64,000 nucleotides of DNA, from positions 7,502,708 through 7,566,707 of the forward strand of contig OZ014412.1 in the NCBI GenBank assembly GCA_963965975.1, written 5' to 3'. Within the stretch, counting starts at the first letter, position 1, and the number at the start of each line of letters is the position of its first letter. The position numbers were made by a program, and so were the translations under genes. The stretch is from Xestospongia bergquistia (taxonomy: Eukaryota; Porifera; Demospongiae; Haplosclerida; Petrosiidae). Below the pieces are notes generated by a model that was not told where the DNA came from, ran no database searches, and was given only the letters and a program-made list of their open reading frames with translations. This document shows, piece by piece, positions 8,291-64,000 of this stretch.

Positions 8291-11200
8291 ATGACTAATA
8301 CAGCAACTTTCCTGTTGTTCATTCTCTTGCCTACAACAGGTATGCAGGCCCCATTTAATATTATTAACTATATAAGATTGTCAGCACTAGCCCAGGTAAC
8401 ACTCAATGAAGATGATATAGTACAATGTTTCAATGATGTTACATCATGTAATGCTAACAGTAATGTAATGATGATAACTGCTGGACAATGTTGCAATACA
8501 ACTGGAGGACCTTCTAGACGTGTGAGAGTTGTTTCTTTTTGTACTAGTTGTTTTGGTGAGTTTATTATTATAATAAATATAAATTATGTCAAAAGAATCA
8601 ATTTACTGAAATAATTTAGTTATAATATATATAATAATACTTAAATTTAATTAAAGCAAAAACTAATATTTCCATAGAATAATAAAGTGCAAGTAATAGT
8701 AAACAATATTGTAATATTAGACAATTTAACATAAACTCAAAAACTTTCAAGTTTTGTTTGTTTCATTTTGTCAATACATATTATTAATCAGTAAATAAAT
8801 TATTAATATTCTATATTGTGTAGTTGTTACATTCAGTCAGGGATCATATTTCTTTGGACCTGATAGCAAAGGAGAAACTGTTCCTTTTCCAATAACTGTT
8901 TCATATTTTTCTGGTACTGGTAACTATAATGTTAGACTCAGGGTTAAGAATAACCCAGATCCGTTACCAAGTGAGGTCTTTGTTACAATAAAATCAAAGT
9001 TATCATTGTTTTTTAGATCGTCGACGTTTCATTACCACGTTTTCAACAAATTACCTTCAGTATACCCCAACAACTACATCACAAAACTTCTCTATGACAT
9101 TAGCTACTAGTGGAAACAACATTGCTCTTGAAGATGCACTAAATTTTACTCTTGTGTTATCTGTTATTTCCTCCACCTTCAGTGGTGGTTTTACAGTTAT
9201 TGTATTGAATTCAGCTAATGTTATAATAGATGATTTAGATGGTGAGTAAATCAGATAATTACATGTACATGTGTTGTTGTATATGATAACAATATTGATT
9301 ATAGTCCTGAATGTTAGAGCACTGAGAACAATACATATTGATAATTTGGTCCCTATATGCAACCATATAGTCTGTAAAACAAATCTATATTGGTTCTATT
9401 ACCTTCTTTTTTTCTTTCTGTCAATTAAATTTTTTTCTAATGATGCTAATACTGTTATTTACTTTTATTAGCTATCAGTATAACATTGGAAAGAGTATGT
9501 CATGAGACTCCAGAATCTTCTGGACGTGTGTCTCAGGTAGTTAAGCGTGATTCTACTCCATTTGCTACTTCATTTAATGTGACTATAACTACAAGAGAGT
9601 ATAGTGGAGATCCTTCATATTTGTCTCAAGATAAATCAATAGCAACACCTAATTTTGGTATGACAATAATATTATGAATTAGTGATAATTCTAACTGTTA
9701 CTAGATTATATTGATGGTGAGACAGTTACAAAGACATTTACAGCTGAAAGTACAGATAGTGTAAGAACATTTGAACTTACAATCATAAATGATTATACTG
9801 TTGAATTGGATGAACTTTTTGATGTTTTTATAACTGTTAGTGATCCTAGAGTAATTATAGAAAGAGATGTAGTTTTTGCTGTTATCTCTGATGATGATAG
9901 TATGGCTATATATCATATTGTGTGTATACTATATTTTGTTGCTCTATAGAATTCAGTATTGGTTTTAGTCAAACAGAGTACACAACACACGAAGGTAAAA
10001 ATATAAATTTAATTGTAAGTGAGTATCAAGGATTCATTGGTGGTGGTGGACTTGGTGGAGTACCTAAAGAACGTCTAACTGGAACTTTCCTGTTATTTAT
10101 TGATATAGATAGCTCAGCTGATGAAAGTTAGTATTATTTCTAGAAAGAAAGTATCTCATATTGTCACTATAGATGTTGACTTTACAATCAACAAAATCCT
10201 TCCTCAATTCACATACTCTCCTAATAACACTATCAACGATATTTCTGTACCATTTCATAGTATTAATGATGGTGTTCTTGAGAGATCTGAAATAGCTGTC
10301 TTAGAAATAAGACTTGTACAAACTGACCGTTTTATTCTTATTCACAATAGTATTGTCCAATATGTAACTATCACAATTTTGGATAACACTGGTAAGATTT
10401 GCATTACATATGAATATTAAATATTTAGTGGTGAAATTCTCATGGTTGAGAACGATACCTGTGTGTAATTAAATGATTATTAAAATAATCAAAACTAGCA
10501 CACACAAATTCTTGTTACTATAACCTGTATATATATTACATATAAAATATATGTCTATCTATAGTGGCCACAGTGAAGTTGTCTGCTAATAAATATAATA
10601 TATCAGAGTCAGTTGGAATATTTCCAGGAGTACAGGTGTGTGCAGACTTAATTAATTCAACTCTGGGATCTGGTCAAACATTACAAGTTAATTTTCTTCT
10701 TAATGATGGATCAGCATTGAGAAATCGTAAGAGTTGGATAATAAAACTTTAATGTTTATTGAGATACTATTTTTTAGAGGATTATTTTCAAAGTATTTTT
10801 GATTCTAAGTTTTTTACATTTTTTGGACCCGATACACGAGCATGTACTACTATCAGAATTATAGATGACAACATCAGAGAACATTTACTTGAGTTCTTCA
10901 ATATAACATTACTACCTTATGATCCAAATACTAGTCCTACTCCAGGTTATACAGGACTAACTGTAGATACAACTCCTTCAACTATGTGTATAGAAGATGA
11001 TGATGGTAAGTTGATTTGATCAATCTGTCAGTCACATTTAATACCTGAGCAGAAACCGAGGTTAGATTTGAGCGATCATATGTCACATTCTCTGAAGCTG
11101 ATGGTAATCAATATATTTATATTATACTAGATGGAAGACAATTATCAAACAATAAAGTTGTGGAAGTTTTTGATATTAAAACAAGTAATCATTTGCTAGA

Positions 11201-11688
11201 AGTCAATATAATAATATTTAGAGACCTTGATAACTTTCATTTCTTTTTCAGATCAAACATTTGGAACATTTACAATTGTTAGCGGTACACCTCCTCAAAG
11301 ACAAGCTGTTTTTTTTCCTGTTGTCAATAACAATATTGCTCTGGAATTAGATAAATTGACACAACTTGGTTTAAGAAATTACAGTATACTTCCAATAGGA
11401 AATCCATTTACAATGAATGTAACAGTTGTGGATGATGATGGTAAATGAAAAATAAATATCAGAATCTTACTAAGTAAAAGTACTTCTGCTATTTGTTATC
11501 TATGTAATATACCTCACATAATAGAAAGTGGGAGTACATTATGATAGTAAATTAGCATCAACTCCATTGAGCATATCTTCACGCAGATAACCTTTACCTA
11601 GAAATAAAGGACATGTCTGCAACCAGGACAACTTCAGCCTGATGCCAATGAGTCCAGAATAGGGTGGTTCCACTGTGTATATATATGC

Positions 11689-11721
<33 letters not shown>

Positions 11722-12297
11722 TAATTATATATATACATGCATACACATGTGGCCAAAAGAATTATAAGCAAGTAAAAATCAAGTTTTAGCATCATAGCTC
11801 ATTGGAAGAAAGTAGTAATATCATGTATTAATATGTGTCTATCTTTCTATAGTGGCCACAGTGAAGTTGTCTTCTAGTAAATATAATACGTCAGAGTCAA
11901 TTGGAGGAGTACAGGTATGTGCAAACTTAATTAATGCAACTCTAGAATGTGGTCAAAGATTGGAAGTAAATTTTGTTCTTATTAATGGATCAGCATTGGA
12001 AGACCGTAAGAGTTATACAATAAACTTTAATGTTTATTGAGATGTCATTTTTTAGAGGATTATTCTCTATTCCCTTTTGAACATCGTTATTTTACTTTTA
12101 TTGCATCCAGTACACAAGCATGTATTGCTATCAGAATTAGAGATGACAACATTAGAGAACCTTTACTTGAGTTCTTCAATATAACGTTACTACCTTATGA
12201 TCCAAATACAAGTCCTACTCCAGGTTATACAGGACTAACCATAGATACAACTCCTTCAAGTATTTGTATAAAAGATGATGATGATAAGTTTAACTGA
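8291..12297 (+). CDS. Calx-beta receptor-like gene B, ends at a lost splice donor
   Basis: Exons: 8291-8339, 8385-8555, 8824-8970, 9017-9241, 9472-9657, 9705-9899, 9950-10126, 10173-10391, 10565-10726, 10778-11005, 11053-11184, 11252-11440, 11853-12005, 12056-12297; about 824 codons with no internal stop. Order: signal peptide MTNTATFLLFILL with an ALA-Q cleavage site made across intron 1; a Cys-rich module (QCFND..SC, QCC, FC..CF); then six Calx-beta domains, mostly split over two phase-1 exons and closing in DDL/DDD-type ends. The last exon should be followed by a GTAAG donor, but the site at 12284 reads ATAAG, so reading continues to TGA. With no TM exon the product would be secreted. AATAAA lies at 12668. 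Family roles are Ca2+-dependent adhesion or recognition; the exact function is unknown. Gene B and the 3' fragment at 13909 were probably once one gene. Confidence 0.78.
11441..11852. other. intron of gene B with a TA microsatellite
   Basis: The intron contains (TA)n at about 11678-11720 and a conserved stretch (11590-11670) that recurs in the matching introns at 28300-28390 and 30820-30900. No gene is seen. Confidence 0.6.
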
Positions 12298-12490
12298 CCA
12301 ATTTGTCTGCCATCTTTTCATTCTGTTTAGCAGAAACTGTACATGTTTATTTTGATTATATAGTTATATTTTTGATCTTAGTACATTTTATAAAACTAAA
12401 AATGTCTCCATTAAATGTGTGTTCTGATTAATTTAGTGTTTGAATTTAGTTATTTCTGCTTTTAGTAGATTCTAAAAAATATAAAAAGTT

Positions 12491-12532
12491 ACAAAGTTAC
12501 TGATTTATTTGATATTAAATCAGTAACTTTGT
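12491..12532. repeat. perfect 17-bp inverted repeat (hairpin)
   Basis: Arms acaaagttactgattta (12491-12507) and its exact reverse complement (12516-12532) are separated by 8 nt. It could form a stem-loop or be part of a small inverted-repeat element. I cannot assign a family. Confidence 0.8.
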
Positions 12533-12730
12533 ATTTCTCACATTTAAGATGGTACTTCTAGTCAGGAAAAGTGTGTCCTAACATAAATCTAGTGTATAAA
12601 TTATAAAGAGATTTGATTTGTAAATTCAAATCATGGTCAAGAAGTGAAAAGATCTTCATTATAACTTAATAAACCTGATAACATTTGAAAACATAAAGTA
12701 TTATACAGGACCAAAAAGACATGATATTTA

Positions 12731-12804
12731 TTAAATAGTAGCATTCAGCTCTTTATCAGATATAGAATCAGTAAATGAGACTTCTGGCTCTTCAGATACA
12801 TCAT
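12731..12804 (-). CDS. possible minus-strand terminal mini-exon (weak)
   Basis: Read on the minus strand, an acceptor (TTATTACAG) at 12805-12806 opens a 74-nt phase-1 frame ending in TAA, coding a short acidic tail (SEEPEVSFTDS..). An AATAAA on the same strand overlaps the stop (12727-12732). I see no upstream partner exon, so this may be chance or the relic of a moved gene. Confidence 0.25.
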
Positions 12805-13123
12805 CTGTAATAACAAACACATTGTACATTTAATACAAGAGAATAAAGTATAACAATTTAATGTTATAATGTTAAGTTTTTTGCTGCAAGTTTGATACAG
12901 TATATTATATGGTTCATACTACCTACTAGAATTAGTGATTAATTAAAAGATTGCTATAAAATGGTGATAGCACTCAGTAGAATTTACTGACATCTTAAAC
13001 ACACGAAACATCTATAATACAGTTGAGTAAGAACAGGGAGGGCAGGCGGAAAGCCCCCCTTAATAATGGTACAGGAAGGGGACCTACAACACCTACCTGC
13101 ACAAATAATTATCAATTGATTAG

Positions 13124-13365
13124 CTGATATATTTGGTATTATTGTGTTAGTGTTCATTATATTCTTACCAATGCTCTACATACAATTTTATCCATTTAAA
13201 CTATTTCAGAAATTACTGAGCTGTTTACATCTAAGAAAAGAAATACTGATATCATTAGGTGACATGTTCACTGGACCCTATAAAAATGGTTTAAAGAATA
13301 CACGTGATTATCGCTGCTTTGCTGGTTTTTATCTTTTTCTAAGGATCATTGTTTTGTGTTTATAA
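13124..13365 (+). pseudogene. fragment of a multipass membrane protein
   Basis: After a possible acceptor (GATTAG) the frame reads a hydrophobic segment (GIIVLVFIIFLPMLY), then YPFKLFQ, a short loop with D.FTGPYKNG and TRDYRCFAGFYLFLRI, then a stop. From memory this pattern (YPF..FQ, YK.GT, TRD.R.FAG.Y) resembles the C-terminal multipass region of some large invertebrate surface proteins, but I cannot name the family. Neither upstream nor downstream exons are present. It is directly followed by the inverted copy at 13415, so it looks like a relic caught in a rearrangement. Confidence 0.45.
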
Positions 13366-13414
13366 TTTGTACCAAGGAGATGAAGATAATAACAAATCCT
13401 TTCGCTTGAATATT

Positions 13415-13885
13415 ACAATTATAGTTGTCCACTTTTTATCAGTTATAAGTTTGTAAGACTCGATATATTCAGCTATGTACATTGACAACTCAGTATTAAC
13501 TCAATAATCACAGTATTCTGAGTAAACACGTGTTATTTTTCTAAGTATTTTATTTCGATAGTAACATATTGAACATCATCGTGAATTAATCTATCAGTTT
13601 ATGGAGACTAATTTCTAGAACAACAGTTTCAGATCTCTCAATAATGTTATCATTGAGACTGTGAAATAGTATAGGAATGCTGTTAAAGTGTTATTAGAAG
13701 CATATGTAAATTGATATAGACTTTGATTGACAATGAAGTCAACATCTACAATGACACAATGAGATCATTTTTAAAAACAATGATACTACTGTCTATAGTT
13801 GTAACTGTAAAAATCACAAAGTACTAGGAAACTTCTAACAATTGATATTCAAGTACTCCACTAACACCACCTATAAAGGCATAAT
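13415..13885 (-). repeat. inverted copy of the 61.54-62.00 kb segment
   Basis: Reading the minus strand gives the decayed Calx-beta exon-7/8 sequence and its downstream flank, as at 6640-7095 and 61560-62000. The end near 13870-13890 also contains, in reverse, the fusion junction found only at 61540-61575 (ttaatattatgcctttatag next to ggtggtgttagtgg). It was therefore copied from a J-side type segment after that fusion formed. Confidence 0.8.
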
Positions 13886-13908
13886 ATTAATTATATGATC
13901 CCTGACTG

Positions 13909-14949
13909 GGTCCTGGTACAACAATACACATTAAAGATGATGATGGTAAAACGTTTATCAAAAGGATAGTAATATTGAAATATTTTATATTTGTCTTACA
14001 GTTGTTATTGTCAATTTTGGTCAAAGTCTATATTCATACAGTGAGAACCATGGAGTAGTATCAGATATTATTATTATATTAAGTACTGCAATAGCTCAAA
14101 GTCTTACTGTCACTGTATCTGGAGGTATGAAACAATACTTCATTACTGATTGTTTATTTATTTTACATATTATATTAGGACCTGGTTCTCAACCTTCAAA
14201 TGTTGAAATATCTGGTGTTGATGTAAATGAAACTATCACATATGCGGCACATGGAATACAGTCTCAAGGTTTATCTAGTTTTATTATCTTCAATGATACT
14301 GTTGCCCTTGAGACTATTGAACAATATATTCTCTCTTTGAACAATCCATCAATAACCAATAGTTTAATATTGGGTTCTGGTGCACTAATAAGAATTATAG
14401 ATGATGATGGTAAAAAATTATTAGTTAATTTAAATAAACGAGTAAAATTATTTATTCACTTATCCTTCAACTAATGTAAGCATACATATTTGACAGTATT
14501 ACTTCTTATTGTTTAGACTCTATAACTGATCAAATGTTGATGAAAAATTCATCATGTGTTTATGTCACTAATGCTAATATAATGTCTACAGGTAAAGAAC
14601 AAATAACAAACCAGTTTGTTCTATCAATTTCTGTTATAGTTACCTCATCAAGTAATGATGATACTAACATATTATTGTTAGGTAAACCTCATATGAGTAA
14701 TTTTTGTAGGTCAATGTTATTGTTATAGTTGCACTTCCAGTAGTCACTGGTATATTATCATCAGTTATAACTGCTATTATTACATCAGTGATATGTTTGT
14801 TTGGTATAAGAAGGAAACTAGACCCACCAAAAGAAACTAACTCTCATATCTATGATGTTCCCATATGTGATATTCCTGATATTAATACTGCTAGTGTTGG
14901 CAAAACAACAACACTAGAACTAAAAGAAAATGTTGCTTATGGGAAATAA
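13909..14949 (+). CDS. 3' half of a type-1 single-pass Calx-beta receptor (gene C), 5' truncated
   Basis: Exons: 13909-13945 (partial, ending in DDD), 14002-14124, 14179-14409, 14517-14591, 14640-14681 and 14729-14949, all phase 1. Exons 2 and 3 form one Calx-beta domain (start VNFGQSLYSYSE, end IRIIDDD). Two stalk exons follow, then a TM helix (GILSSVITAIITSVICLFG), a basic stop-transfer GIRRK, and a tail with IYDVP, DIPDI and ENVAYGK before TAA. The start is cut by the inverted segment ending at about 13885; the bases before the partial exon belong to that rearrangement. It probably formed one gene with B. It lacks the three extra stalk mini-exons of gene F. AATAAA lies at 15081-15086. No promoter of its own is seen, so expression is doubtful. 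Confidence 0.72.
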
Positions 14950-16862: not shown

Positions 16863-19590
16863 ATGACTCAGGGAGTATTGGTTGCGTTGTATGTTTTACT
16901 TTCTACAGGTAAGCTTATGCACATATAGATATTTCATTTTATCTTTACTACAATAATATTAGTTAATGTAAGTGGTAATTTCTTTACAGCACTAGCCCAG
17001 ATACCAGCCGTATTAACATTCAATGAAGATGATATGGTACAATGTTTCAATGATGTTACACCATGTAATGCTAACAGTAATGTAATGATGATAACTGCTG
17101 GACAATGTTGTAATTCAACTGGAGGATCTTCTAGACACGTGAGAGTTGTTTTTCAGAGTAATCAAGCTTTTTGTGGCAGTTGTTTTGGTGAGTTTAGTTA
17201 ATTGTTATTTACCATATGTATTTTCATAATCAAAAGAAAACATAGACAAAATATTACAAGCAATAGTGAAACAGCTACAATTAGACAATTCAATGTTCTA
17301 AAGTACTTTCAAAATTATTCTTTTCATTTACAGTGATTTTATGCTAGTGTTTCATATATCTAATGATTGCAGAGTTAATTGTGTAGCCATATATCAAACT
17401 ACTTAACCTTTTACATGTTTTGTAGCCATTACATTCAGTCAAAGATCATACTTCTTTGGACAAGAAATCAGAGGAAAAATAGTCACTTTTCCAGTTACTA
17501 TTTCCTATTTCTCTGGTACTGGTAGCTACAATGTTAACCTTAGAGTTAACCAAAACCCAAATACATTACCAAGTGAGTTTTTGTTAGAGTAAAACAAAGT
17601 TATCATTGATTTTGTAGATGGTGGAAATTTCATTACCAGATTTTCTAAAAGTGATCTTCACTATACACCAACAAGTACATCAAACAACTTCTCTATGACA
17701 TTAGCTATTAGTGGAAACTAGATCGCTCTTGAAAAGGCACTAAATTTTACTCTTGTGTTGCCTGTTACTTCATCCTCCTTCAGTGATTATACAGTTATTG
17801 TATTGAGTTCAACTAATGTTATAATAGATGATTTAGATGGTGAGTAAATCAGATAGTTACATGTACATGTGTTGTATACATAACAATTAGTTATGGAGTC
17901 ATAAGAATCAGTCTTTTTTTATTTTCTCTCTTTCTCTGTAATGCACTATTAAAATGTAATTTTCTTTAGTTATCAGAATAACAATTGACAGATTATCTTA
18001 TGAAGTTCAAGAATCTTCTGGACACGTGTCTGTTGTAATTAATTGTAATACTATTTTATTTGCTACAATATTTAATGTGACTATAACTACAAGAGAGTAT
18101 AGTGGAAGTCCTTCAACTTTGACTGCTGAGCAATCAATAGCAACACCTAATATTGGTATAATAATAATATTATGAATCAATAATAGTTTTAACTGTTACT
18201 AGATTATGTTGATGGTGAGACAGTTACAAAGACATTTACAGCTGAAAGTATAGATACTGAAATAACATTTGAACTTACAATCATAAATGATAAAATTGTT
18301 GAATTTGATGAACTCTTTGATCTTGTTATAACTGTTAGTGATCCTAGATCATTGTTTTAAGAAACAATCTTATTATGTGACTGTAGATATCGACTTCACT
18401 GTCAACAAAAGTGTAGATCGGTTTACATATACTGCTAACAACACTATTAACAGTATTCTTATACTATTTAACAGTCTCAACGATAGCATTCTTGAGAGAT
18501 CTGAAACTGTTGTTCTAGAAATCAGGCTCTATCATACTAGTGGACTTATTCAAATTCACAATGATGTTCGATATGTTACTATTACCATTTTGGATAACAC
18601 TAATAAGACTAAATAAAATACTTAGAAAAATGATGTGTGCTTTGTTACAGCTTTATTTTGTTATTATATAATCATCCTACAACAGACCTCTCCCATTTAT
18701 TATCCTCTCTGTCCTGGAGATAATGTGACATTGACCTGTACTGGTACTGGCACTTACCTCCAATAGATCAATCCTGTAAGTACTAAAAATTCTTTAACTT
18801 TATCATATTCTGCTACTAGTGGTGTTGCTGGTGACTTTACTGTTACTTTTGTCAGTAGTATATCAAATGTTGTGAAATCTGAAGCAAGACTTCAACCTGT
18901 TTCATCTCATCATAATGGTAGTGGCATCATATGTAAGAATGTTGACAAGAATAAGAGTCAGCAGAGAAATGTTCTAATATCTAGTAAGTATACATGCACT
19001 TATATAATTTACATTCTAGGTATTATACAGATATTTCCTCAAATCCACAAAATGTCATTTTCCTAGTACCTCTAGCAGTTTTAATGCAAAATGCCACTAC
19101 TGTTACTTTTGACAAATTTCTAACAACCATTAACATATTCTGGCAGATATAACACATACTGTTAATATGTAATCATTTTAAATAATGCTGTAGTCGAATA
19201 TTGACATTTAAATAAGTACTATATGATATCTCACAATATTAGTGAAGAAAGCATCACTACTATCAATATGACTAATGTCAGATTGTATACAAATTTAACT
19301 GGTAGATTTGTTATTAATGTGTCTGCTGTAAACATATTAGGAGAAGGTCCAGTCAAAACAATAATAGATATAATACAATTATTAATATCAAAAGGTATTT
19401 ACTACAATTTATCTTACTAGTTTTTGTTGGTTGTATTAATATTACTAATGTGTATAATGAGAATAAACAAAACAAATCCTATCATTACATATTGTGCTAG
19501 GTAAACATTATGTCAATTATGTATGTATATTCTTATTAATAACATTGTTAATATAGTATATATCATTTACATTAAATATCACATATACAG
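16863..19590 (+). pseudogene. type-2 receptor D (Calx-beta + Ig + FN3), degenerate
   Basis: Exon 1 (16863-16908, MTQGVLVALYVLLST) and exon 2 (16990-17187, six-Cys module) are intact, as are exon 3 (17426-17572) and exon 5 (17970-18155). Exon 4 (17618-17839) carries TAG at 17719-17721 where paralogs have CAG. In exon 6 (from 18203) the sequence jumps near 18350 into the intron before exon 8, deleting exon 7. The exon-8 copy (18387-18600) has lost its GTAAG donor. The Ig exon (from about 18675) has TAG where gene G has the Ig tryptophan (near 18765). The first FN3 exon is mostly deleted, and the TM/tail exon breaks off into 3'-UTR-like sequence near 19600. It is the degenerate twin of gene G at 35737. 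Confidence 0.85.
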
Positions 19591-21833: not shown

Positions 21834-23871
21834 ATGACTAACGAAGCAGCTTTCTTGTTGTTCATTCTCTTACCTACAACAGGTATGCAGGATACATTTA
21901 ATATTATGATATTCAGGAAATGATTATACTACTTTATACCAGTACTATCCCAGTATTCAACATTCAATGAAGATGATATGGTACAATGTTTCAATGATGT
22001 TACATCATGTAATGCTAACAGTAATATAATGATAATAACTGCTGGACAATGTTGTAATTCAACTGGAGGATCTTTTAGACATGTGAGAGTTGTTTTTCAG
22101 GGTAATCAAGCTTTTTGTGGCAGTTATTTTGGTGAGTTTATTTTATAATAAGTATAAATATAGTCAAAATCTATTTACTGAAACAAAAATTTATAATAGG
22201 CTAATTAAGCTTCAATTTGTTTAAAATAAAAACCTATATTACTAGAGTAATCAGTCTAATTATTACAGAATTGATTTTCCATATTGTGTAGTTGTTACAT
22301 TCAGTCAAAGTTCATATTCCTTTGCACCTGAAAATGGAAGAAAAAACTGTACCTTTTCCAAAATTTCCTATTTCTCTGGTAATAGTATCTCTGATGTCAG
22401 ACTCAGTTTTAGAAATAACCTCGATCAATTACCAAGTGAGTTCTTGTTACAGTAAAATGTTATGGTTAACTTCATAGATAGTGGACAATTTATTAGGAGA
22501 TTTACAAATAATAACCTTCAGTATACCCCAACAGCTACATCACAAATCTTCTCTATGACATTAGCTACTAGTGGAAACCAGATTGCTCTGCTCTAACATT
22601 CAGGACTGTAATCAAAATTGTTATGTATACAACAACATATTTAAATGTAACTATCTGATTTACTCACTATCTAAATCATCTATTATAACATTAGCTGAAC
22701 TCAATACAATAACTGTATAACCACTGAAGGAGACAGAAGTAACAGACAACACAAGATTAAAATTTAATGCATCTTCAAATGAGAACAATACATATTGATA
22801 ATTTGCTCCCTATATGCAACCACATAGTCTGAAATACAAACCTATATTGTTTCTATTACCTTCTTTTTTTTTCTTTCTGTCAATTAAATTTTTCTAATGA
22901 TACTAATACTGTTATTTACCTTTATTAGCTATAGGTATAAGATTTGAAAAAATATCTCATGAAGATCAAGAATATTCTGAGCAGGTGTGTGTTTTTCGTT
23001 AAGCGTGATTCTACTTCATTTGTTACTTCATTTAATGTGACTATAACTACAAGAGAGTATAGTGGAGATCCTTCAACGTTGACTAGTGAGCAATTAATAG
23101 TAACACCTAATATTGGTATGACAATAATATTATAAACCATTGATAATTCTAGCTGTTACTAGACTATGTTGATGGTGAGACAGTCACAAAGACATTTACA
23201 ACTTGAATTTACAATCATTTGAATTTACAATCATAAATGATAAAACTGTTGAATTAGATGACTTCTTTGATCTTGTTATAACAACTGTTAGTGATCCTCG
23301 AGTACTTATAAAGAATAAAGTATCTTATGACATAATCATTGATGATGACAGTATGTTGTTCTGTTTATTGTTTAATATGTTTTTTTTAGAATTTAGTTTT
23401 AGGGAAATACAACATACAATACATGAAGGTGAAATATAACATTGATTGTGGAAGAAAAGGAGGATTTGTAGGTGGTCTAGCAATTGGTGGAGTGCTTGGA
23501 GCTTGATGGTTAGGAGTGTTCCTAATATTTTGTAAAGTAGACAGTTCAGCTATAGAAAGTTAGCTTTATTTACGGAAAAATGATATCTTATTATATCTTT
23601 ATAGATGTTGACTTCATGTACTGTCAATAAAAGTCTATCTCTGTTCACATATGCTGCTAATAACACAATTAATAGTATCGCTATAGCATTTCAGAATATC
23701 AATGATGACATTGCTAAGAGATCTGAAAAGGCTGTTTTATCAATAAGGCTCAACGGATTGTTTATCAAACCTGACTCTCAACATGACACTATCACCATCA
23801 CCATCCTGGACAAGAACAGTAAGCATTATGATGACGTGTATTTAATAGAGAAGTCTATCAATTCATCCTAA
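21834..23871 (+). pseudogene. Calx-beta receptor E, disrupted
   Basis: Exon 1 (21834-21882, MTNEAAFLLFILLPTT) and exon 2 (21943-22131, Cys-rich module with the last Cys changed to Tyr) are open. Exon 3 (22292-22435) reads through with two compensating shifts. Exon 4 (from 22478) is broken by an inversion of about 22590-22778 that turns its second half and part of the next intron around. Exon 5 (from 22929) has a one-base frameshift leading to TAA. Exons 6, 7 and 8 (near 23164, 23390 and 23606) carry further indels and stops. No TM or tail exon follows. Upstream DNA matches that of gene F, so E was a full paralog. Confidence 0.85.
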
Positions 23872-25042: not shown

Positions 25043-25044
<2 letters not shown>

Positions 25045-29481: not shown

Positions 29482-29526
29482 TTGTTACTGTGAAGTTTAG
29501 TCAGTCCCTATACTCTTACAGTGAAT
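29482..29526 (+). pseudogene. half Calx-beta exon at a duplication breakpoint
   Basis: It starts like the exon at 32000 (VVTVKFSQSLYSYSE) with a good acceptor. It then jumps into the short intron that precedes exon 6 and meets TAA with no donor. It marks where the duplicated exon block of gene F was joined. Splicing from 29398 directly to 29538 would skip it in frame. Confidence 0.7.
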
Positions 29527-49252: not shown

Positions 49253-49289
<37 letters not shown>

Positions 49290-52200
49290 ATGTATGTGTG
49301 TATGTATTTGTGTATGTATGTATATATATACACATACATTTTATTATGCTATAATTAGGAGTTATTATATAATGAGAAACTCAGCAAATAGTAGTGTGGT
49401 TACTGTTTTAATAAGCTGTACAAAATGTGTATGTTTATCTAAAAGAATTAATAACCTGGTATTGAATGTAAGTTGTATGCAAACATTTGATATCAAATTT
49501 TCAATGATGCTCAACATTTAACAGACCTTATAGCCTTTGTACAGTACACTATTGCTCCAATCATAATAATGACCAAACATTCATACTAATTTTCTTAAAG
49601 TTGCTAGGGCTAAGTTATCTCAGAATATATACAATACTTATGAGTCCACTGAAGTAGTAGAGGTCTGTGTTGACTTGATTAACGCAATTTCAGTGTCCAG
49701 TACAAAATGTTTACAGATAAATTTTGTTTTAAAAGATGGATCAGCAAAAGTAACAGGTGCTAAAGTCAATATTTCAATATTTTTAAATATTAGACTCTTT
49801 TTATAGATGACTATTTTTTGCTTCCTTTTGTTCTTCACACTTTCAATTTTGATTCTAACAACAGATCTTGTCTTAATATTACTATTTCAAATGACAACAT
49901 TAAAGAAGATTTATTTGAATCTTTAACTATAAATTTACTGCCTTATTATTCTCTAAATAGTTCAACTCTAGGATTTTCAGGACTGACAGTAGACACAGCA
50001 TCTTCAAGAATTTACATAGAAGATGATGATCGTAAGTGATTTTATCAATTTATTATCCTTATATTTTATTCTCTTAATCTTAAACAGAAGGAGTAGTGAA
50101 ATTTGAACTAGCAAGTATTATTTTCACAGAAAGTGGTGATCAAAACATCTACATCATACTAGATAGATCACAATCGCCCAAAAATCATAGTGTGGAAGTC
50201 TACAATATTAATACAAGTAATTAATAGTATATACATAATCAGCCTTATTTCAATGAAGTAAATCTTTAATTGGTAATTCAATTCTCTATATTTCAGATGA
50301 AACTGTAGGCATTGTTACATTTGTTGGTGGAGTTCAACCTCCTCAGAGACAGTTTGTTCTTTTCCCCATTGTCAATAACAATATAGCTCTAGAACCAGAC
50401 AAATTGACACAACTTGGTTTGAGAAATTATGGTGAACTACAAGAAGGAACCCCATCCATCATGAATATAACAGTTGTGGAGGATGATGGTAAATGAAAAT
50501 AAAGAAAATATAAAGTTCTTGCTGGTAATGTTTTGTTTTAGCTGTTACAGTACATTTTGGTCAGAGCACATATACTTACAACGAGAGCCATGGAATAGTA
50601 TTGAATATCACAATTGGATTAAGTACTGCAATAGCTCAAAGTCTGACAGTGATTGTGTCTGGAGGTTATTTGAATTTATTATAGTAATTTTAAACATAAT
50701 ACTCACTTCAGGACCTGATAACCAGCCTTCAACAGTTGAAAAATCTGGTGTCAATGTAAATCAAACAGTCATATTTACAGCACATGGAGAACAGTCTCAA
50801 AGACTACCTAGTTTTATTATCATCAATGATACTGTTGCTCTGGAGACTATTGAACAATACAATCTTTCTTTAAGCAACCCTTCTATAACAAATGGTGTAA
50901 TATTGGGCTCGGATACAACAATACACATTATGGATGATGACAGTATGTTGTAATCAGTATTCCATATTTAATTTTTTCCTACAGTACTTAGAATTAACTT
51001 TGATCCAGAAGTATCCTTCTATATGGAAGGACAATTAGATACTCTGAGAGTTATAATGAATTACGTCATTGGTCAAGATTTTAGTGTCGATGTCAATGGA
51101 TGTAAGTCACATGATCTTGATTCTTGTTATATATAAAGTTAGCTTCAGGATCACAACTGAGGGTTAAGAACAATGGTCCCACTATAAATCAAAGAGTGAT
51201 ATTTACTGCTCGTGGGTCACGAACTGTCCAAATTTCATTGAATATTGGAGATGATCTAGTGGCTAGAGAAGATTTTGAAAGCTATCAAGTTGCATTATCA
51301 AATCCCAGTGATGCTATGGTCATTCTGGGAGCATCAGCTACCATCAACATTAGTGACAATGATTGTAAGCGTCTTTTCACAAAATATCTGTCTTGAAAAC
51401 AACTTTTTACAGCTGCCAATATTACTTTTGAAAAGCCTCAATATGTTTTTCTCGAGAATGTAGGACTTACAATGGTTGTAACAGTCATCTTGGACAACGA
51501 AATTGCTGAAGAGTTTTCTGCAAATGTTGTTGGAAGTGAGTCTTCTTTTGTGCAAACTTTGTTTCATTTATACACAGATCCCGGTAAACTACCTCCCACA
51601 ATTGTTAATTCAGGCAGTATTGTTGACTATAACATAACATTTCTAGCATTTGATAATAGTATTGTAAGTTATATTATCTATACTGTTAGGTTATACATAT
51701 CTTACATTCATAGGATAATCTAAGGAAAATAATACCTGTACAAATTGTCAATGATTCAACTTCTGGAGAGCCTAATCAAATGTATGATCTAGCATTAACT
51801 GAAGTACCTACAGGACTGGGAACCAAACAAGTTAACAAATATCCCTATGAAAAGACAACAATAGTGATTATTGATGATGATAGTGAGCACTATAGTGACA
51901 GTTTAAAATGTTGAGTACATTTCATTTATAGTTGCTCGTGTTTTCTTTGACTCAGCTGAGACCACAACACTAGAGTCTAATCAAGGTGCTTATATCACTG
52001 TGGTTCTCACTCTCACTGGTAGTATGTCTCACAATGTTTCAGTAGATGTAGTTGATGACAATGGTAAGTTATTGAATAGTAGTTATAATGTGTTTGTTGA
52101 CATTATATTATCTGTATGTGATCATTGCTAAGGCTGCTAACAAGAGTAGACTTAATATTTTATATTTTTATTTAGGTGAACTTGTAAGAACATTTATATT

Positions 52201-55200
52201 CCAACCAATGGTTAGCACTGGATCAAGACAAACAATGAGGTTATTTGTACCATATCCTGATGACGTGATTGCTCTTGAACCTGATGAGTACTTTAACTAT
52301 TACTTAACGAATCCAGTAGATGTTCTCATCAGTTCACCTCACATTACTCAACATCGTCTAGTTGATGATGATGGTACATCTAATATGACTTTATTTATCA
52401 TCTATATGTCTATGCTTTCTTAGTGCTTACTGTCACATTTGTCCAGTCTGCATATATTTTTAATGAAAGAAATCAATCAGTCTATATTGAGGCAAAAATC
52501 TCCAATTCAATAGCACGTGCATTCACAGTGTCTACAACTTCAAGTAAATCATTCATTCCCATTCGTGCAAGTAGAACTCAGCTTATTTATTTCATGCACT
52601 TTTATTTCTACAGTTGGATCAAACCAACCATTTATTCATATCTCTGGTCCAAGCTTTAATGACACATTAATATTTCAGTCAAATGGGAGTCAAATACTTC
52701 ATATTACTGATACTATACACGATGATATTATTGCTTTGGAAGATGTGGAGATATATTTCATTCAATTTGTGAATCCTAATCCAGATCCCAGGGACAATCC
52801 TTATGTCAGAATTGGCAACGATACACTGATTTCAATAGTCAGTGATGACAGTGAGTTAAATGTAAAACTTAAACTACTATACATGAGGACACTATCATAC
52901 ATTATTATAACACTCAGCTTTGTAACCAAATTGTAATTTGTTCATATTGTGTACATCTCTTCTTCAGTTGTTACCATGAATTTTGGTCAGAGTATATATT
53001 CTTACAGTGAGAATCATGGAGTAGTATCAGATATTACTATTATATTAAGTACTGCAATAGCTCAAAGTCTTACTGTCACTGTATCTGGAGGTAATGATTA
53101 ATGTACTATAACTGTTTAATATCTTATTATTTTAGGACCTGGTACTCAACCTTTAACAGTTGAAATATCTGGTGTTAATGTAAATGAAGTTATCACATTT
53201 GTGGGACGTGGATCTCAATCTCAAAGACTACCTAGTTTTATTATCATCAATGATACTATTGCTCTGGAGTCCACAGAACAATATGGTCTCTCTTTTAGTA
53301 ATCCTTCAATAACTAATTGTGTTACACTGGGCCCAAATACAACAATACAAATTATGGATGATGATGGTAAGCAATTATGAGCTAACTGCTTTCTGTAGTT
53401 ATCATTGAATTAAGAATTTGTGCAAAAAATTTTTATTGCTGATTATCTTTTAAACATGTTTATTTTCTATATCCCTTTCAGTTGTTACAATCAATTTTGG
53501 TCAGAGTATATATTCTTACAGTGAGAATCATGGAGTAGTATCAGATATTACTATTATATTAAGTACTGCAATAGCTCAAAGTCTTACTGTCATTGTATCT
53601 GGAGGTAATGATTAATGTACTATAACTGCTTAATATCTTACTACTCTAGGACCTGGTACTCAACCTTTAACAGTTGAAATATCCAGTGTTGATGTAAATG
53701 AAGCTATTAAATTTAAAGCACATGGTTCTAGATCTCAAAGTCTACCTAATTTTACTATTATCAATGACACTGTTGCTCTTGAGATCACAGAACAATCTGA
53801 TCTTTCTTTTAGTAACACTTCCCTAACTAATGGTGTCACACTAGGCCCAGATACAACAATACATATTATGGATATCATATCAATAATATTAATTTTAAAT
53901 TAATGGATAATTATGTATACTACAATTAATGTAGCTTATTAATTATACATATATCTTAATACAGTATTATATTATATATATATATTAATATTTTAACTAA
54001 CAAAACATGTACATGGTGAGTAAAATGATTCTAAATAGGGTCATTATTTCAAGACTTGGATGAACCTATATAGTTAGACAATACATATATAATACAATCA
54101 ATATCTTTTTAATGCATTAATATTGATCTTTTAATAATTTATAATAATTTAAACACTGACCATGCATACATTTGTTGTAATTTATTACAGTTAATTGTCC
54201 ATATCTATTTTCTTATATCTTAATCTCGTCTGTTTTATTATCTCCAAATCATTCAGTTTTACAACAAACATATACACTTTTAATAGACAATAGGCTTAAA
54301 AGAATTCAGTTTGCTCTCTTCCTTGTTTTTCAGTTAATGCAGTCATAAAGAACAATACTGGAGGATTTGTTGCCAAAGATAAAGAACAAAATGTGACATT
54401 AAACTGTACAGCTGATGGTATTCCACAACCTGTTATTGTATGGAGAAAAAATGGACAACTCTTATTGAACACAAGTAGAGTAACAATTGTATCATCACAG
54501 CAGTCTAATGGTTTTCACACAAACTATATTCCTACTACAAGTATGATAACAATCACAAAATTGAGAGGAAATGATAATGGTAGCTACTCCTGTCGAGCTG
54601 ATAATACAGTTAAAACTGGATCTGTTTTAATGACACCATATGTACTCCAAGTAGTTGAACGTAAGTGACTTAAGTTATTTTCATTTGTAATTGTCTATTT
54701 TCAGCTTTACCGACAAACTACTGTTTAAATTCTCCTTGTGGTGAACATGGTAAATGTCACAGTTTGAGTAATGGACATGTGTGTGATTGTTCTAGTGGAT
54801 ATACTGGTATTAATTGTGAACAAGGTAAGGTAATGCAAACTGATGCATACTGTGTTATATTATCTTTATTTATATAGTTGTGATAATCTACATTTTACCA
54901 GAAATTATACAACCACCTAGAAACACTTCAGGGAATCTTTATTCCACTGCTAACCTTACTTGTAGAGCTACTGGTAATCCTATCCCTACTATTTTGTGGT
55001 ATAAAGATGACGTGTTATTTCCAAATGACAACAATAATTCTTCTGTATTGATGTTTACTGAATTGAATTTAAATGATAGAGGATTCTATCACTGTGAAGC
55101 TAAGAGTATAATTAGAGGAAATATTATCTCAGTGAACTCTTCAAGTGTTATATTAAACATTTCTGGTATTAATGTAGATAAAGTGATAAGTGTTTAATTG

Positions 55201-58200
55201 ACAATTTAATATTCAATATAGATGTTGTTCAATATAAAGCTGAAATGAAAATATCAGAAGATTATGAGACAACCAATATGACTGTATTGGAGATTATCTG
55301 GGATATCATTAATCAGGTAAACCTTGTATATGTGTATGTATATATAAATTTATATATTGTATTTTTCATTTGATAGAGTAATAGTTTACTTTCTGGTAGA
55401 AGGTTGTACAGTTTAAATGCTTTCTTTTTATTCATACAACTTCTTGATTCAAATAACATTAAGTAAATCTGTACTTTAGACTAGTGACATAATATTTCTC
55501 ACTTTAATTTACAGTTACACTGCACAACTTAATACTATTCCTATTGTTGTTACTTTGGTAACAAAGAATGAAGCTACTGAACAACTCAGAGTTGGAGTAC
55601 AACAACAATTGGCTACACTAAGTGTACAAATCAAAGTTAATATTTCATTTGATAAAGTGGAGAGATTTGGTATGTCAATATCATTAACATAACTTGAATA
55701 TTATCACTTTATCAAGATGGTTGTCCTGCTACCAATACTACTATACCATCACATTCTGGAAGACATGATCTTAATATCTCTATTTTGTGGCCTGAAGCTA
55801 ACATTGGAGTACAAGTCATCAGAAGCTGTCCTTGTGGTAACAAGAGTTCAGAAGGAGGGGGGATTCTTCAAGCTACTAGATATTGTGGAGGAGACTTCAC
55901 CAGTGGAGCAATGTGGATTGAACCAAATGTAGCAGCTTGTAATTTTAGTGAACTAACTCATGAAATATGTGGCTTAAGAAATGTTTGTCAATATATTCAA
56001 CTGTAATATTGATTGAAAGTATTACTTTGTTTAGGCACCAGTTGCCAAAAAAGTAAAACAACTGGAGAACCTCACCAGTAATAGCAGTAGATTAGGCTCT
56101 ACTGAAGTGATAGCAAGTGTGAGTGTCCTGATAACAGCTACAGAAGATGTCTCAGGAAATTTTACTGTAAGACCTCTCTTGCAATTGTTCTTACAAACTA
56201 TTTATTATTATATTTATAGTTGTCTACTACATTTTTGGAAGTGGTTGACAATATTATAAATGTCAATCAAGACACTTTACAGACTAGCCAGGAAAAATCT
56301 AACACATCAGCTAAGTCAGTTAACTTTGTATAATATAAGAGATTGATATTGTCTTTTTACATATAGAATGTTAGAAGCTATTGAGTCAGTTGTAGAGAGT
56401 ATACCAATTACTAATATTTCTGAACCAGTTATAATAACACAACAATCATTTGCTGTATCTGTACAACAAGTGAATATTGAAGAATTTACACAATCTGGTC
56501 AAAGATTCAGTGTAAATTATAGAGGATTTTCAGATGGAAATCAAACTCTTAACTCTAATGATTTAGTATTTGGAACAACTAGTCAACAACCAACAGCAAC
56601 TATCAGTTTACCAAACAATTTACTGAGTACAATTCCAACTATTACTAATAATACTAGAATCACTCATTCAGTCTTCACTACTGAGTCTCTATTCTTGAGG
56701 AGAATTAATAAATTTCTTGAGATTGGTAGTATCATCATCTCAACTACTGTTGTAGGAACAGATACAATAAGTGGACTGGATCCTCCAGTAGGTCTTAGTT
56801 TCCAGATTAATCCAGTAAGTATTGTGGTATGTGTTCATAATGAACATTCTAATTTTGTTATAGAATTTAAATGGTTCATCTCCACAATGTTCATTCTGGA
56901 ATCAATCTTTAGACAGTAAGTTGAATTAGTTATTGTATTATGATAACTGTTCCTGTTAGATGGATATGGAGACTGGTCTAATAAAGGATGTCATAACACT
57001 ACTAGTAATAAAACAGAAATTTTTTGTGAATGCAATCATCTTACTAACTTTGCTATATTAATGGTAAGTAATAAAAGAATTAATGTTGCTATTTATTATT
57101 ATAATTTATAGGATGTATCTCCTGTTATTAATGAACCAATAGAACAAACTGAGCTAACACTGTTGTTAAATTCTGTGACTTACATTGGTATCATTGTCTC
57201 TATCTTTTGTGTGACTATTACTATCATTTCTTACTTTGCTAACAAGTATGTTATTAATTCATATTCATTTTATTATATTATCTTGATAGGAAACTACGTA
57301 CTTCTGAACATGGACAACTTCTTCTTAACTTGTGTTTTGCTTTAATGGGTCTCTATATTGCCTTTATTTTTGCAGTTCATAGTCGTACTATTCCTGTTCT
57401 CTGTGCTGTTACAGCTGCTGTATTGCAGTACTTCTTTTTAGTAACTTTCATGATCATGGCTGCTGAGGCTATCAACTTGTATATGAATTTAGTGATTGTC
57501 CTTGGAAGAAAAATTCGTCATTTTGTTTTAAAAGCTACCATATTATCATGGAGTAAGTACTTATTATCATTGACATGATATACTATATAATGATTTCTAA
57601 CTTGAAGTTACTCCATTGTTCATTGTCTTGTTCTGTTCCGCTCCCAATTATAAAAACTATTTGAGTGATCATTTGTAAGTAGTTATATTTGTATATAAAA
57701 TGTTTACATTTTATTATTATATAGTTGTCGTGCCTTTAATGAACCATACTATATTGGTATGATAGTTCCATTTCTGATCATCTATTTGTTCAATTGGGTG
57801 ATATTCATCATCATCATTGTTTCACTTCTACGAAAAAACTTCCAGTCTGATATCAAAAGAAAGAACAATAAAAACATAACATTTGTTCGCCAACAACTTA
57901 TTATAACTGTGACATTGTCTATCTTGCTTGGTCTTGGATGGGGTATTGGATTGTTAGCCACTCAAGATATTCATACCAATAAGTCAGTACGAGATCTCTT
58001 TGCTGCATTGTTTGTGATTACCACTGCTTTTCATGGTCTGTTCATTTTTATAATGCATTGTCTTCGTTCCAAAGAAGTAAGGAATACTTGGAAGCGATGG
58101 TTCTATGGTGTTACAGGCAAAGACTTTAATGAACTCTCATCTTCTGCATTTTTCACCAAGCAAAAAAACATGTTCCTGGTACAACAGGCAGTTTTCGCAC

Positions 58201-58223
58201 AACTATTGGGCAACAAGCAGTGA
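47390..58223 (+). CDS. adhesion GPCR with a Calx-beta repeat ectodomain (gene I)
   Basis: N-terminal exons: 47390-47438 (signal peptide), 47542-47733 (six-Cys module), then Calx-beta exon pairs from 47819 to 53366 (11 domains) plus 53482-53604 and an incomplete 53650-~53880. Next: Ig 54334-54660, EGF 54705-54824, Ig 54878-55165, linker 55222-55316, 55377-55402 and 55515-55669, HormR 55717-55982 (CP..CPCG..TRYCGG..W), GAIN 56035-56166, 56220-56314 and 56367-56814, GPS 56864-56915 and 56960-57063 (CSFWNQ, W..GC, CECNHLTNFAILM with the HL/T cleavage site). 7TM: 57112-57245, 57290-57552, 57608-57674, 57725-58223. Splicing 53366 to 54334 gives about 2,423 codons in frame. The architecture recalls the vertebrate ADGRV1/VLGR1 group, but Ig, EGF and HormR domains and the shared N-terminus differ. 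Probable role: adhesion-coupled signalling at the plasma membrane. Oddities: the last Calx-beta exon lacks a donor, and the tail is cut by a shift in a poly-A run at about 58164. Confidence 0.85.
49254..49287. repeat. (TA)n microsatellite in a gene I intron
   Basis: A TA repeat followed by TATG repeats in the intron between Calx-beta exons 49023-49238 and 49601-49756. Confidence 0.85.
52968..53880 (+). repeat. tandem duplicated Calx-beta exon pair in gene I
   Basis: The pair 52968-53090 and 53136-53366 is repeated as 53482-53604 and 53650-~53880 with few differences, including intron sequence. The second copy loses the terminal DDD codons and the donor (attatggatatcatatcaat instead of attatggatgatgatggtaa). 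Confidence 0.8.
53881..54333. other. intron of gene I before the first Ig exon
   Basis: AT-rich, no gene seen. It ends in a good polypyrimidine tract and CAG acceptor (CTTGTTTTTCAG). Confidence 0.6.
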
Positions 58224-59175: not shown

Positions 59176-59223
<48 letters not shown>

Positions 59224-61517: not shown

Positions 61518-61539
61518 TGAGTTAATACTAAGAAATCTT

Positions 61540-62000
61540 TAATATTATGCCTTTATAGGTGGTGTTAGTGGAGTACCTGAATATCAATTGTTAGGAGTTT
61601 CCAAGTACTTTGTGATTTTTACAGTTACAGCTATAGACAGTAGTATCATTGTTTTTAAAAATGATCTGATTGTGTCACTGTAGATGTTGACTTCATTGTC
61701 AATCAAAGTCTATATCAGTTTACATTGCTTCTAATAACACTTTAACAGCATTCCTATACTATTTCACAGTCTCAATGATAACATTATTGAGAGATCTGAA
61801 ACTGTTGTTCTAGAAATTAGTCTCCATAAAACTGATAGATTAATTCACGATGATGTTCAATATGTTACTATCGAAATAAAATACTTAGAAAAATAACGCA
61901 TGTTTACTCAGAATAGTGTGATTATTGAGTTAATACTGAGTTGTCAATGTACATAGCTGAATATATCGAGTCTTACAAACTTATAACTGATAAAAAGTGG
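61540..62000 (+). pseudogene. Ig-intron to Calx-beta fusion junction and decayed exons 7-8
   Basis: The intron after the exon-4 copy runs at about 61555 straight into a mid-exon-7 Calx-beta sequence (ggtggtgttagtggagtacc), equivalent to 6644 on the left side. About 4.1 kb present at 2.5-6.6 kb is therefore missing here. The following exon-8 copy (from about 61684) is frameshifted, as in the left copy. Confidence 0.8.
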
Positions 62001-63200
62001 ATAACTATAATTGCAAGCTAATAAACAAACATTAAACATAATTATTGTTTGCTTAGTATATGTTCTATGTTGTTCATTGAACATTAGAGGTCTGAATATA
62101 ATCTGTATGGGTCCAAAAAGCAGTACTATGTACATGTTGTAGTAGTACTTTCTTGTTTTAAGTGCTATATGTTTCTTAAAACAACAATAGGTTCCTTGTG
62201 AGAAAAGAAATATCAATAACATGTAACGAGGTCAAGTTTATGCATAATATATATTTAGTTAAGTACTTGGGTTAAGTACAATATTAAGATCATCATCTGG
62301 ACTGTACAGACTAAATGGTAAATAGTAAAAATATATTATAATACTGGGATATTGTTTCATATTAGTACTGATCAAAGGGGTGTAGGTTTTGAGGAAACCT
62401 TGTCAAGATACATGGCTACATAAACCTAATCTTTTGTTGTTTATTCATTTGCTAAATATATTAGACTCTTAGTGCAGTAAAGCATTTTGTCTAATAGCAA
62501 TGTTACTAACGAGAAAATGCCAACAGGATGTTATTGGAAATGTTTAGTGTCTAAATATACACAGTTTGTTTGTCTTGCTGAGTGATCTATTAACTATATG
62601 ATAGTCTATAGTATCACAATTAGAAAGGAAAGCATTCATTTGGAAATTAAAGGCTAGCCTTACTGTCTGATAGACACTACTGACATTGATATTGCTGATG
62701 TTACTACAATTACAATACAATATTGTTTATGAAGGAATATGTTGAATGATTCAAATATTACTAAAAGAAATCATTGTTTATTGCTTATGAAAGACATTAT
62801 TATTAAAGTCTAAATATAATATTATTCACTAGTCTAATGCTATTAGTGTTTGTAAATACATCATTCAACTTGATTTATTAAATGTCTGATCTTTTCTATA
62901 TAATGTTTATTGTTATTAAATGTATATTTATATGTAGCTATTATCAATAAAATAATAGCAAACACAAGTTAGACAATTAAAAATGTAACCAATGACAAAA
63001 AGTCTACAAGAAGTTTAGTACCTAAAAATACGTGCTTTGTTAGCTTTGCTGAGTGACCCATTAACTAGATAAATAGTCTAGTGTGAAAACAGCAGTACAA
63101 TCAGACAATAGAATAACATATTTGGAACCATCAGATTCACTATCTGGACTGAACTGCTTTAAGAAGAGAACTTGCTAAAGGCTACTATCGTCTTGTTAAG
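62001..63200. other. intergenic upstream of gene J, copy of 7095-8290
   Basis: No gene is seen. It is co-linear with the upstream region of gene B and ends with the same leader block at about 63141-63185. Confidence 0.7.
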
Positions 63201-64000
63201 ATGACTAATACAGCAACTTTCCTGTTGTTTATTCTCTTGCCTACAACAGGTATGCAGGCTACATTTAATATTATAATTATATATAAGATTGATATATTAA
63301 CTTTTACTTTACCAGCACTAGCCCAGGCAACACTCAATGAAGATGATATGGTACAATGTTTCAATGATCAGTCGTCATGTAATACTAACAGTAATGTAAT
63401 GATGATAACTGCTGGACAATGTTGTAATTCAACTGGAGGATCTACTAGACGTGTGAGGGTTGCTTCTTTTTGTACCAGTTGTTTTGGTGAGTTTATTATT
63501 ATAATAAATATAACCTATGTCAAAAGAATCAATTTACTGAAATAATTTAGTTATAATATGTATAATAATACTTAAATTTAATTAAAGCAAAAAACTAAAT
63601 ATTGCCATAGAATAATAAAGTGCAAGTAATAGTAAGCAATATATTAGACAATTTAACATAAACTCAAAAACTTCAAGTTTTGTTTGTTTCATTTTGTCAA
63701 TACACATTACTAATCATTAAATAAATCATTAATATTCTATATTGTGTAGTTGTTACATTCAGTCAGGGATCATATTTCTTTGGACCTGAAAACGGAGGAA
63801 AAACTGTTACTTTTCCAACAACTGTTTCATATTTCTCTGGTACTGGTAACTATAATGTTAGACTCAGGGTTAACAATAACCCAGATCCATTACCAAGTGA
63901 GCCCTTGTTGCAGTTAAATGTTATGGTTGACCCTATAGATGGGGGACGTTTTATCAGTAGATTTTCTAATAATATTGTTCAGTATACACCAACAACTACA
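63201..64000 (+). CDS. Calx-beta receptor gene J, N-terminal part (runs off the window)
   Basis: Exons: 63201-63249 (MTNTATFLLFILLPTT), 63316-63486 (six-Cys module: QCFNDQSSC, QCC, FCTSCF), 63750-63896 and 63939 onward (first Calx-beta domain, GGRFISRFS). All are in frame without lesions. Closest to gene B: both lack the five-residue FQGNQ-type insertion found in D, F, G and H. The rest of the gene lies outside the window, so its signalling end is unknown. Confidence 0.8.

Follow-up and report, generated by a model that had tools for sequence, protein, structure and literature searches.

Gene content of the cluster

The window analysed here is a 64,000-nucleotide stretch of the Xestospongia bergquistia genome (C2:7502708-7566707; 146.5 Mb in 21 contigs, GC content about 30%). 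It holds a cluster of genes in which one extracellular front end, composed of a signal peptide (SP), a module with six cysteines (six-Cys) and an array of Calx-beta (CB) domains, is joined either to a single transmembrane (TM) segment with a tyrosine-containing tail or to the seven-transmembrane (7TM) end of a G-protein-coupled receptor (GPCR). Coordinates without a prefix are window positions, and C1, C2, C8 and C12 denote contigs. The genes with this front end and their main parts are as follows.

8291..14949, + strand: gene B, 17 exons, 923 aa; SP, six-Cys, Calx-beta 1-5, one CB6-type, linker, TM and tail (genes B and C of the initial annotation)
8385..8555, + strand: six-Cys exon of B
14729..14949, + strand: TM and YDxP tail exon of B
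16863..19461, + strand: D, a broken relative of G with stops in CB1b and in the Ig exon
21834..23818, + strand: E, a fragmented copy with an inverted CB1b piece (22669, minus strand)
25762..33739, + strand: F, of B type, with an internal duplication of CB2-CB5; tail SHIYDDPIYDIPD
35737..39910, + strand: gene G, 14 exons, 805 aa; SP, six-Cys, Calx-beta 1-3, Ig-like, FN3-like, TM and tail
41668..44864, + strand: H; possible SP, six-Cys, CB1-5 and half of CB6
47390..58223, + strand: gene I, 43-44 exons, 2526-2547 aa; SP, six-Cys, Calx-beta array, Ig-EGF-Ig-HormR-like-GAIN/GPS-7TM
57112..58223, + strand: 7TM exons of I
63201..64000, + strand: 5' end of J (SP, six-Cys, CB1), which runs beyond the window to a 7TM end

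Three further genes were modelled outside the window.

C2:7448997-7462050: U1, with a GPCR end (Ig, EGF, HormR-like, GAIN, GPS, 7TM)
C2:7471191-7476580: U2, compact, from SP to a single TM and YDxP tail
C2:7493292-7499120: U3, compact, from SP to a single TM and YDxP tail

Genes were modelled from start to stop under the guidance of homologous exons, with exon families mapped across C2:7432708-7616707, and the output of a splice-site gene finder was dropped because it fused the entire + strand into one gene. Seven models (B, G, I, J, U2, U3 and U1) run from start to stop without an internal stop. Since the model builder was restricted to GT-AG introns and to avoiding stops, these two properties are weak evidence alone; the exon matches of U1, U2, U3, I and J are open independently of the models, except for the linker matches of U2 and U3, which cross an intron, and one weak Ig match in J. 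For U1, some small exons look spurious, and re-splicing by hand broke the frame. With Pfam cut-offs of 27 bits for Calx-beta, 21.5 for EGF, 26.2 for HRM, 30 for Ig_3, 25 for fn3, 22.9 for VWD and 27 for ITI_HC_C, scores exceeded the cut-off for the Calx-beta domains of B, U2 and I and for GPS, 7TM and Ig of gene I, and fell short of it for Calx-beta, Ig and fn3 of G and for EGF and HRM of I.

The shared front end

The six-Cys exon had 13 matches genome-wide at E <= 0.001, 12 within C2:7.28-7.57 Mb and one on C12. Eight lie in the window, in B, D, E, F, G, H, I and J, and the others at C2:7284655, 7449105, 7471320 and 7493864, upstream of the window, and at C12:6811895. The window copies are 78-100% identical to that of G and each is followed by Calx-beta exons, indicating that the common start assigned to these eight genes in the initial annotation is correct. 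In an alignment of 12 of the 13 copies (F, which carries a TGA, was omitted), 27 of 66 columns were invariant, including CFND and ITAGQCC, and the module had no Pfam match. The exon order is SP, six-Cys and CB1a-CB3b, each Calx-beta being split over two exons, and in most cases CB4, CB5 and CB6-type exons come next. Exon phase symmetry permits the shuffling of modules without loss of frame, and exons start in phase 1 in 19/20 cases in U2 and 12/14 in G, with lower proportions in the GPCR-ended I (31/44) and J (24/36).

Membrane ends and tails

Three membrane ends were found on this front end, namely a single TM with a YDxP tail, an Ig/FN3-like pair with a TM and a YDIP tail, and an Ig-EGF-Ig-HormR-GAIN-7TM series. 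The window contains one open model of each (B, G and I), because C belongs to B as its 3' part, D, E and F are disrupted, exon mapping located no membrane end for H, and J ends outside; U2 and U3 add to the single-TM type, and U1 and J to the GPCR type.

The single-TM type had been assigned to F and C. The gene models place this end type in B, U2 and U3, but F has a TGA in its six-Cys exon (25924-25926), and C is the 3' end of B, since U2 and U3 reach the same tail from the SP in 5-6 kb and B reads through when a degenerate duplicate is left out. This duplicate lies at 11853-12287, its donor GT is changed to AT, and skipping it gives an open frame through to 14729-14949, where the tail reads SHIYDVPICDIPD...ENVAYGK; the resulting reading frame of B is a splicing hypothesis from the model. 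A reading through the duplicate CB4 exons was rejected, with 25 stops on direct splicing. The Calx-beta score of B is 45.4 bits in the final model and was 77.9 bits in the earlier one holding the duplicate, where the best stretch lay; in U2 it is 64.2 bits. An inverted CB3b fragment lies in the long intron of B (13553-13764, minus strand).

The Ig/FN3 type with a YDIP tail had been assigned to G and D. G is open and its tail reads PPPIYDIPD...ENYAYEGGNDYY, but its Calx-beta (19.8 bits), Ig_3 (14.0 bits) and fn3 (13.1 bits) are all under the Pfam cut-off, and D has two stops, with neither CB3a nor a TM/tail exon found by exon-family mapping. The same mapping found no TM/tail exon, and nothing past half of CB6, between H and gene I. 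Downstream of G lies a further open exon, perhaps an alternative last exon of G or a remnant of a lost gene.

40827..41045, + strand: second TM and YDIP tail exon, 90% identical to that of G

The GPCR type, assigned to I, stood as described. Its Calx-beta (74.5 bits), 7tm_2 (93.5), GPS (59.4) and Ig_3 (76.8) are over the cut-off, and EGF (18.0 against 21.5) and HRM (15.8 against 26.2) are under it. Across the GAIN, GPS, TM1 and TM7 exons J and U1 are 93-95% identical to I, so that I by its Pfam scores, and J and U1 by identity to I, combine the GPS/GAIN and class B2-type 7TM that define adhesion GPCRs. A 63-nt intron in the first Ig exon is unneeded in I and J, as both are open without it, which gives the longer form of I. 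I and J also share an exact tract from Ig1 to HormR, introns included, which reflects either recent gene conversion or assembly collapse; beyond its downstream end the identity is 87-98.5% in 200-bp windows, and the sequence immediately upstream differs.

53882..55897, + strand: I/J identical tract, 2,016 bp, in I (68103-70118 in J, in window coordinates)

The YDxP motif occurs in 8/8 tails of this genome, against a shuffle expectation of 0.027 per tail, in 18/24 close database tails (E <= 4.1e-8, out of 219 matches at E <= 1) and in 7/11 of the next ones. Phosphorylated YxxP is bound by the SH2 domain of Crk (PMC12071665). A second tyrosine context, ENxAYG/E with near variants, is present in 8/8 own and 23/24 close database tails. 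A pair of YxxL/I, the immunoreceptor tyrosine-based activation motif (ITAM), was present in 0/8 own and 0/24 database tails, and the [ILVS]xYxx[ILV] pattern resembling the inhibitory motif (ITIM) in 2/8 own tails, both of A-type genes, and 14/24 database tails (chance 0.17 per own tail); judged by their predicted tails, these proteins are not ITAM/ITIM immune receptors. In distant tails of other assemblies (P0057, P0058, P0060 and P0062), a single YDTP is followed by 2-4 repeated ENVAYGG-type units.

The tail exon had 12 genome matches (8 in C2:7.468-7.544 Mb, 3 at C2:6.157-6.218 Mb and 1 on C1), the Ig exon of G had 33, of which 27 lie in a cluster at C2:5.90-6.23 Mb, and the GAIN exon had 84, of which 6, at >=93% identity, lie in C2:7.276-7.574 Mb and 11, at 84-89%, in C2:10.96-11.45 Mb, the remainder being mostly on other contigs. 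The front end is therefore local, and the back ends are part of larger receptor families. The single-TM end is moreover common to two ectodomain types, because the type-A genes at C2:7463991 and 7480335, which have Ig arrays, finish in this linker, TM and YDxP tail as well.

33..5582, + strand: gene A, a receptor whose ectodomain is of a different type, an Ig array

No TM exon was found for this window copy; the upstream type-A gene at C2:7480162-7490639 has nine A_7-type Ig units, one of them partial. A partial duplicate of the gene A region (59961-61893) lies ahead of J, like the A-B order at the start of the window.

An aggregation-factor-like gene with the same front end

The single six-Cys copy outside the C2 cluster starts a long open gene on C12.

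C12:6812159-6798323, minus strand: aggregation-factor-like gene, 53 exons, 3385 aa, open; 51/53 exons start in phase 1
50985..52850, + strand: CB7-CB10 of gene I, 61-84% identical to the C12 gene

The C12 gene is laid out as SP, six-Cys, CB1-CB5, several CB6-type exons, CB7-CB10, more Calx-beta, a VWD-like exon and a C-terminal domain. Its SP is 88% identical to that of B, its six-Cys module shows 71% identity, its CB1-CB5 exons are 33-86% identical to those of the receptors, and the series from SP to Calx-beta 5 matches that of the C2 receptors exon for exon, in the same order and mostly in the same splice phase. CB7-CB10 was not the best match in any receptor copy mapped besides I. Pfam scans of two stretches, 738 and 705 residues long out of 3385, gave Calx-beta scores of 49.1 and 61.2 bits, and, judged by eye, the protein has an SP and no apparent TM. 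The C-terminal domain scored 20.4 bits against ITI_HC_C, under the cut-off; its exon has 7 genome matches, five at C12:6.799-6.844 Mb and two at C8:1.224-1.227 Mb, and a VWD over the cut-off lies directly before three of these C-terminal exons (C12:6841145, 32.9 bits; C12:6844106, 23.1; C8:1223963, 24.4). Neither the VWD nor the C-terminal exon had a match at E <= 0.01 in C2:7432708-7616707, where the modelled genes finish in a TM or 7TM.

Aggregation factors (AFs) are reported (Grice 2017) to combine Calx-beta, VWD and Wreath domains and to be encoded in Amphimedon by five similar clustered genes. The Calx-beta array, VWD-like exon and C-terminal domain of the C12 gene and its cluster of five resemble this plan, and the C12 gene is very probably a sponge AF. 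The front end of the receptors is most likely the AF N-terminus, because the 13th copy of the module starts a gene with an architecture of this kind in a cluster of five. The spread of the module through unrelated housekeeping proteins, which the initial annotation named as counting against its proposal, was not seen among the 13 matches; as the sole non-cluster copy starts an AF-like gene, adhesion or self-recognition is more plausible than from the window alone. In demosponges such as Amphimedon, allorecognition is controlled by an AF gene cluster with a Calx-beta domain (PMC10815962), and a review describes AF as highly polymorphic and as bridging cells via specific transmembrane receptors (PMC8066720).

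Copies in other assemblies and sequence divergence

A six-Cys profile search returned 29 public proteins, representatives of 90% clusters. Three are exact to this genome (B, J and U3, on one 497,641-bp contig) and 26 are not. For these 26 the identity to the best own match is 58-95%, counting intron read-through, so that no one-to-one orthology is evident; this divergence is not a measure of polymorphism, as the sources may be alleles or other species. Six modules lie with B-like and G-like tails on a 716,283-bp contig absent from this genome, and module and tail occur together also on contigs of 173,754 bp and 550,196 bp by tail profile search. Other assemblies were searched for the module and the single-TM tails, and contigs were paired by printed size only.

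Selection was examined in 11 exon families with 5-8 genes each (U1, U2, U3, B, G, H, I and J, where present). D, E and F were omitted from the site models and the intron comparison, and I from the latter as well, and broken and fragment copies were kept in the pairwise ratios of replacement to silent divergence (dN/dS). These ratios were 1.74 for CB2a and 1.35 for CB4b (broken copies included), compared with 0.22-0.42 for the HRM, GPS and 7TM exons and 0.89 for GAIN. M1a/M2a site tests gave p=0.0013 for CB4b (5 genes) and p=0.031 for CB2a (8 genes), and the other 9 of the 11 exon families were not significant. With D, E, F and I omitted, dN exceeded dS in 19/21 pairs for CB2b. The dN of CB2a (0.214) and CB2b (0.143) was higher than the divergence of the adjacent short introns (0.073 and 0.093), and both were lower than that of five introns pooled (0.247). 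Taken as a whole, the sequence comparisons are suggestive of diversifying selection on Calx-beta 2 and 4 and do not prove it.

Comparison with known receptor systems

Sponge aggregation factors are secreted and are used in cell recognition and adhesion. The C2 proteins resemble them (MAFp3/p4, AqAF) in the SP, the Calx-beta array and the exon-by-exon homology to the C12 gene in its cluster of five with VWD and C-terminal domain, and differ in that, where an AF has its C-terminus, they carry a membrane end with a signalling motif. Gene I shares with ADGRV1/VLGR1 a Calx-beta array ahead of GAIN/GPS/7TM, but in gene I the Ig-EGF-Ig-HormR series intervenes and the GAIN/7TM end comes from a large adhesion GPCR expansion of this genome; EPTP/EAR repeats and LamG, features of ADGRV1, were absent from the 18 Pfam families found in gene I at E <= 0.5. 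The adhesion GPCRs of Amphimedon likewise have Ig, EGF, fn3, HRM, GPS and 7TM domains, whereas an AF-like front end is not described in the accessible portion of that report, whose main text contains "Calx" 0 times (PMC4302439). Paired immune receptors and the colonial allorecognition receptors Hydractinia Alr and Botryllus fuhc are similar in their clustered genes and single ectodomain type with differing signalling ends; here, by contrast, the ectodomain is of AF/Calx-beta rather than Ig-like type, ITAM is absent, ITIM-like sequences are restricted to 2/8 own tails, and one output is a GPCR. Such receptors are not described in the titles and abstract openings of the open-access articles among the matches listed.

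Interpretation of the cluster

The C2 cluster is somewhat more probably than otherwise a set of AF-linked recognition receptors, that is, membrane proteins with the AF N-terminus as their outer half, and their role in recognition is what we infer from sequence. By this account the AF-like arm would assemble together with AF in its secreted form, or with that module carried by an adjacent cell, and AF-mediated contact would thereby be read inside the cell. The YDxP tails would become phosphorylated and in that state bring Crk/Nck-type SH2 adaptors to the actin and adhesion machinery. In GAIN/GPS receptors a pull on the ectodomain can trigger activation, and the GPCR form may report the same contact by tension on its GAIN domain and through G proteins; specificity would come from the differences between copies in Calx-beta 2 and 4. 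A bolder version is a tentative and rather doubtful proposal, that the C2 proteins are the receptors of AF itself, with the ligand (the C12 AF cluster) and the receptor sharing a homologous N-terminal arm and allorecognition working by the matching of secreted and membrane modules, read in parallel via YDxP docking and an adhesion GPCR.

Several observations weigh against AF-linked recognition. The G-type end is known from one intact example, G alone, D, E and F are broken, and H is without a found membrane end. The VWD of the C12 gene itself scores 15.2 bits, under the 22.9 cut-off, and the AF naming leans partly on features attributed to AFs (Wreath; Grice 2017). YDxP is absent from 6/24 close database tails and from 2/4 tails on the 716,283-bp contig. 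As for selection, CB4b, with 5 genes, is the one family still significant after correction for 11 tests, all 11 exon families have a one-ratio omega below 1 (0.24-0.93), dN exceeds dS for CB2a in only 11/21 pairs once D, E, F and I are omitted, and dN/dS above 1 is found also outside the ectodomain arm (Ig1_I 1.16, Ig1b_I 2.97, A_6 2.04, lnkF 1.98 and TMt_G 2.50, with 1-6 pairs each); gene conversion, as suggested by the 2-kb identical tract, can mimic selection. Genes of AF-mediated adhesion were not significantly enriched in an Amphimedon graft transcriptome, in the accessible part of that study (PMC5450542).

Three other explanations were weighed. The AF-derived arm may have been co-opted for binding microbes or their glycans, so that pressure from pathogens or symbionts rather than allorecognition drives diversification, and this is an unlikely but serious alternative. 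It would fit the tandem arrangement, in which some copies are broken and one tract is identical, and a GPCR end from a very large adhesion GPCR expansion, and in another sponge exposure to microbial molecules altered the expression of a GPS-domain GPCR and of Calx-beta genes (PMC6208332); the front end, however, is that of an AF-like protein, and the six-Cys module is without a Pfam match. Comparably improbable is that the proteins are surface anchors of AF in general adhesion without discrimination of individuals, the type of end being set by cell type or developmental stage. The strongly conserved six-Cys core, the omega below 1 in every Calx-beta exon family and the view of AF as held to bridge cells via transmembrane receptors (PMC8066720) are consistent with such anchors, but the copy turnover in the database modules and the replacement excess in CB2 and CB4 argue against them. 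That the array is largely a decaying one, with chimeras as by-products of exon shuffling and the three outputs as artefacts of gene modelling, is very improbable: it would fit the disruption of D, E and F, the failure to find a membrane end for H and the decayed internal duplicate in B, but seven models are complete from start to stop, the exon matches of five of them are open without a model, apart from the linker and Ig matches named above, and the module and both single-TM tail types share the 716-kb contig absent from this genome.

AF-linked recognition by the C2 receptors agrees in part with the initial annotation; the core of its observation holds and extends beyond what it described, the details were partly confirmed, and its interpretation was partly supported. 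Of the eight genes to which it gave this front end, B, G, I and J have models that run from start to stop, D, E and F are disrupted, and for H the membrane end was not located. Distribution over tyrosine-motif and GPCR outputs is borne out by these models and by where each part lies across the genome, but several of the genes counted for it carry defects and D yielded no YDIP tail.

The cluster is a clear instance of a single recognition module fused to three different signalling ends. Cells of sponges sort themselves by AFs. A review of AF attributes its action to specific transmembrane receptors whose genes are unnamed in its accessible text (PMC8066720), and the C2 genes are, from their predicted products, good candidates for self-recognition receptors of sponges. 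As concrete, cloneable candidates, they make the receptor side of sponge self-recognition testable.

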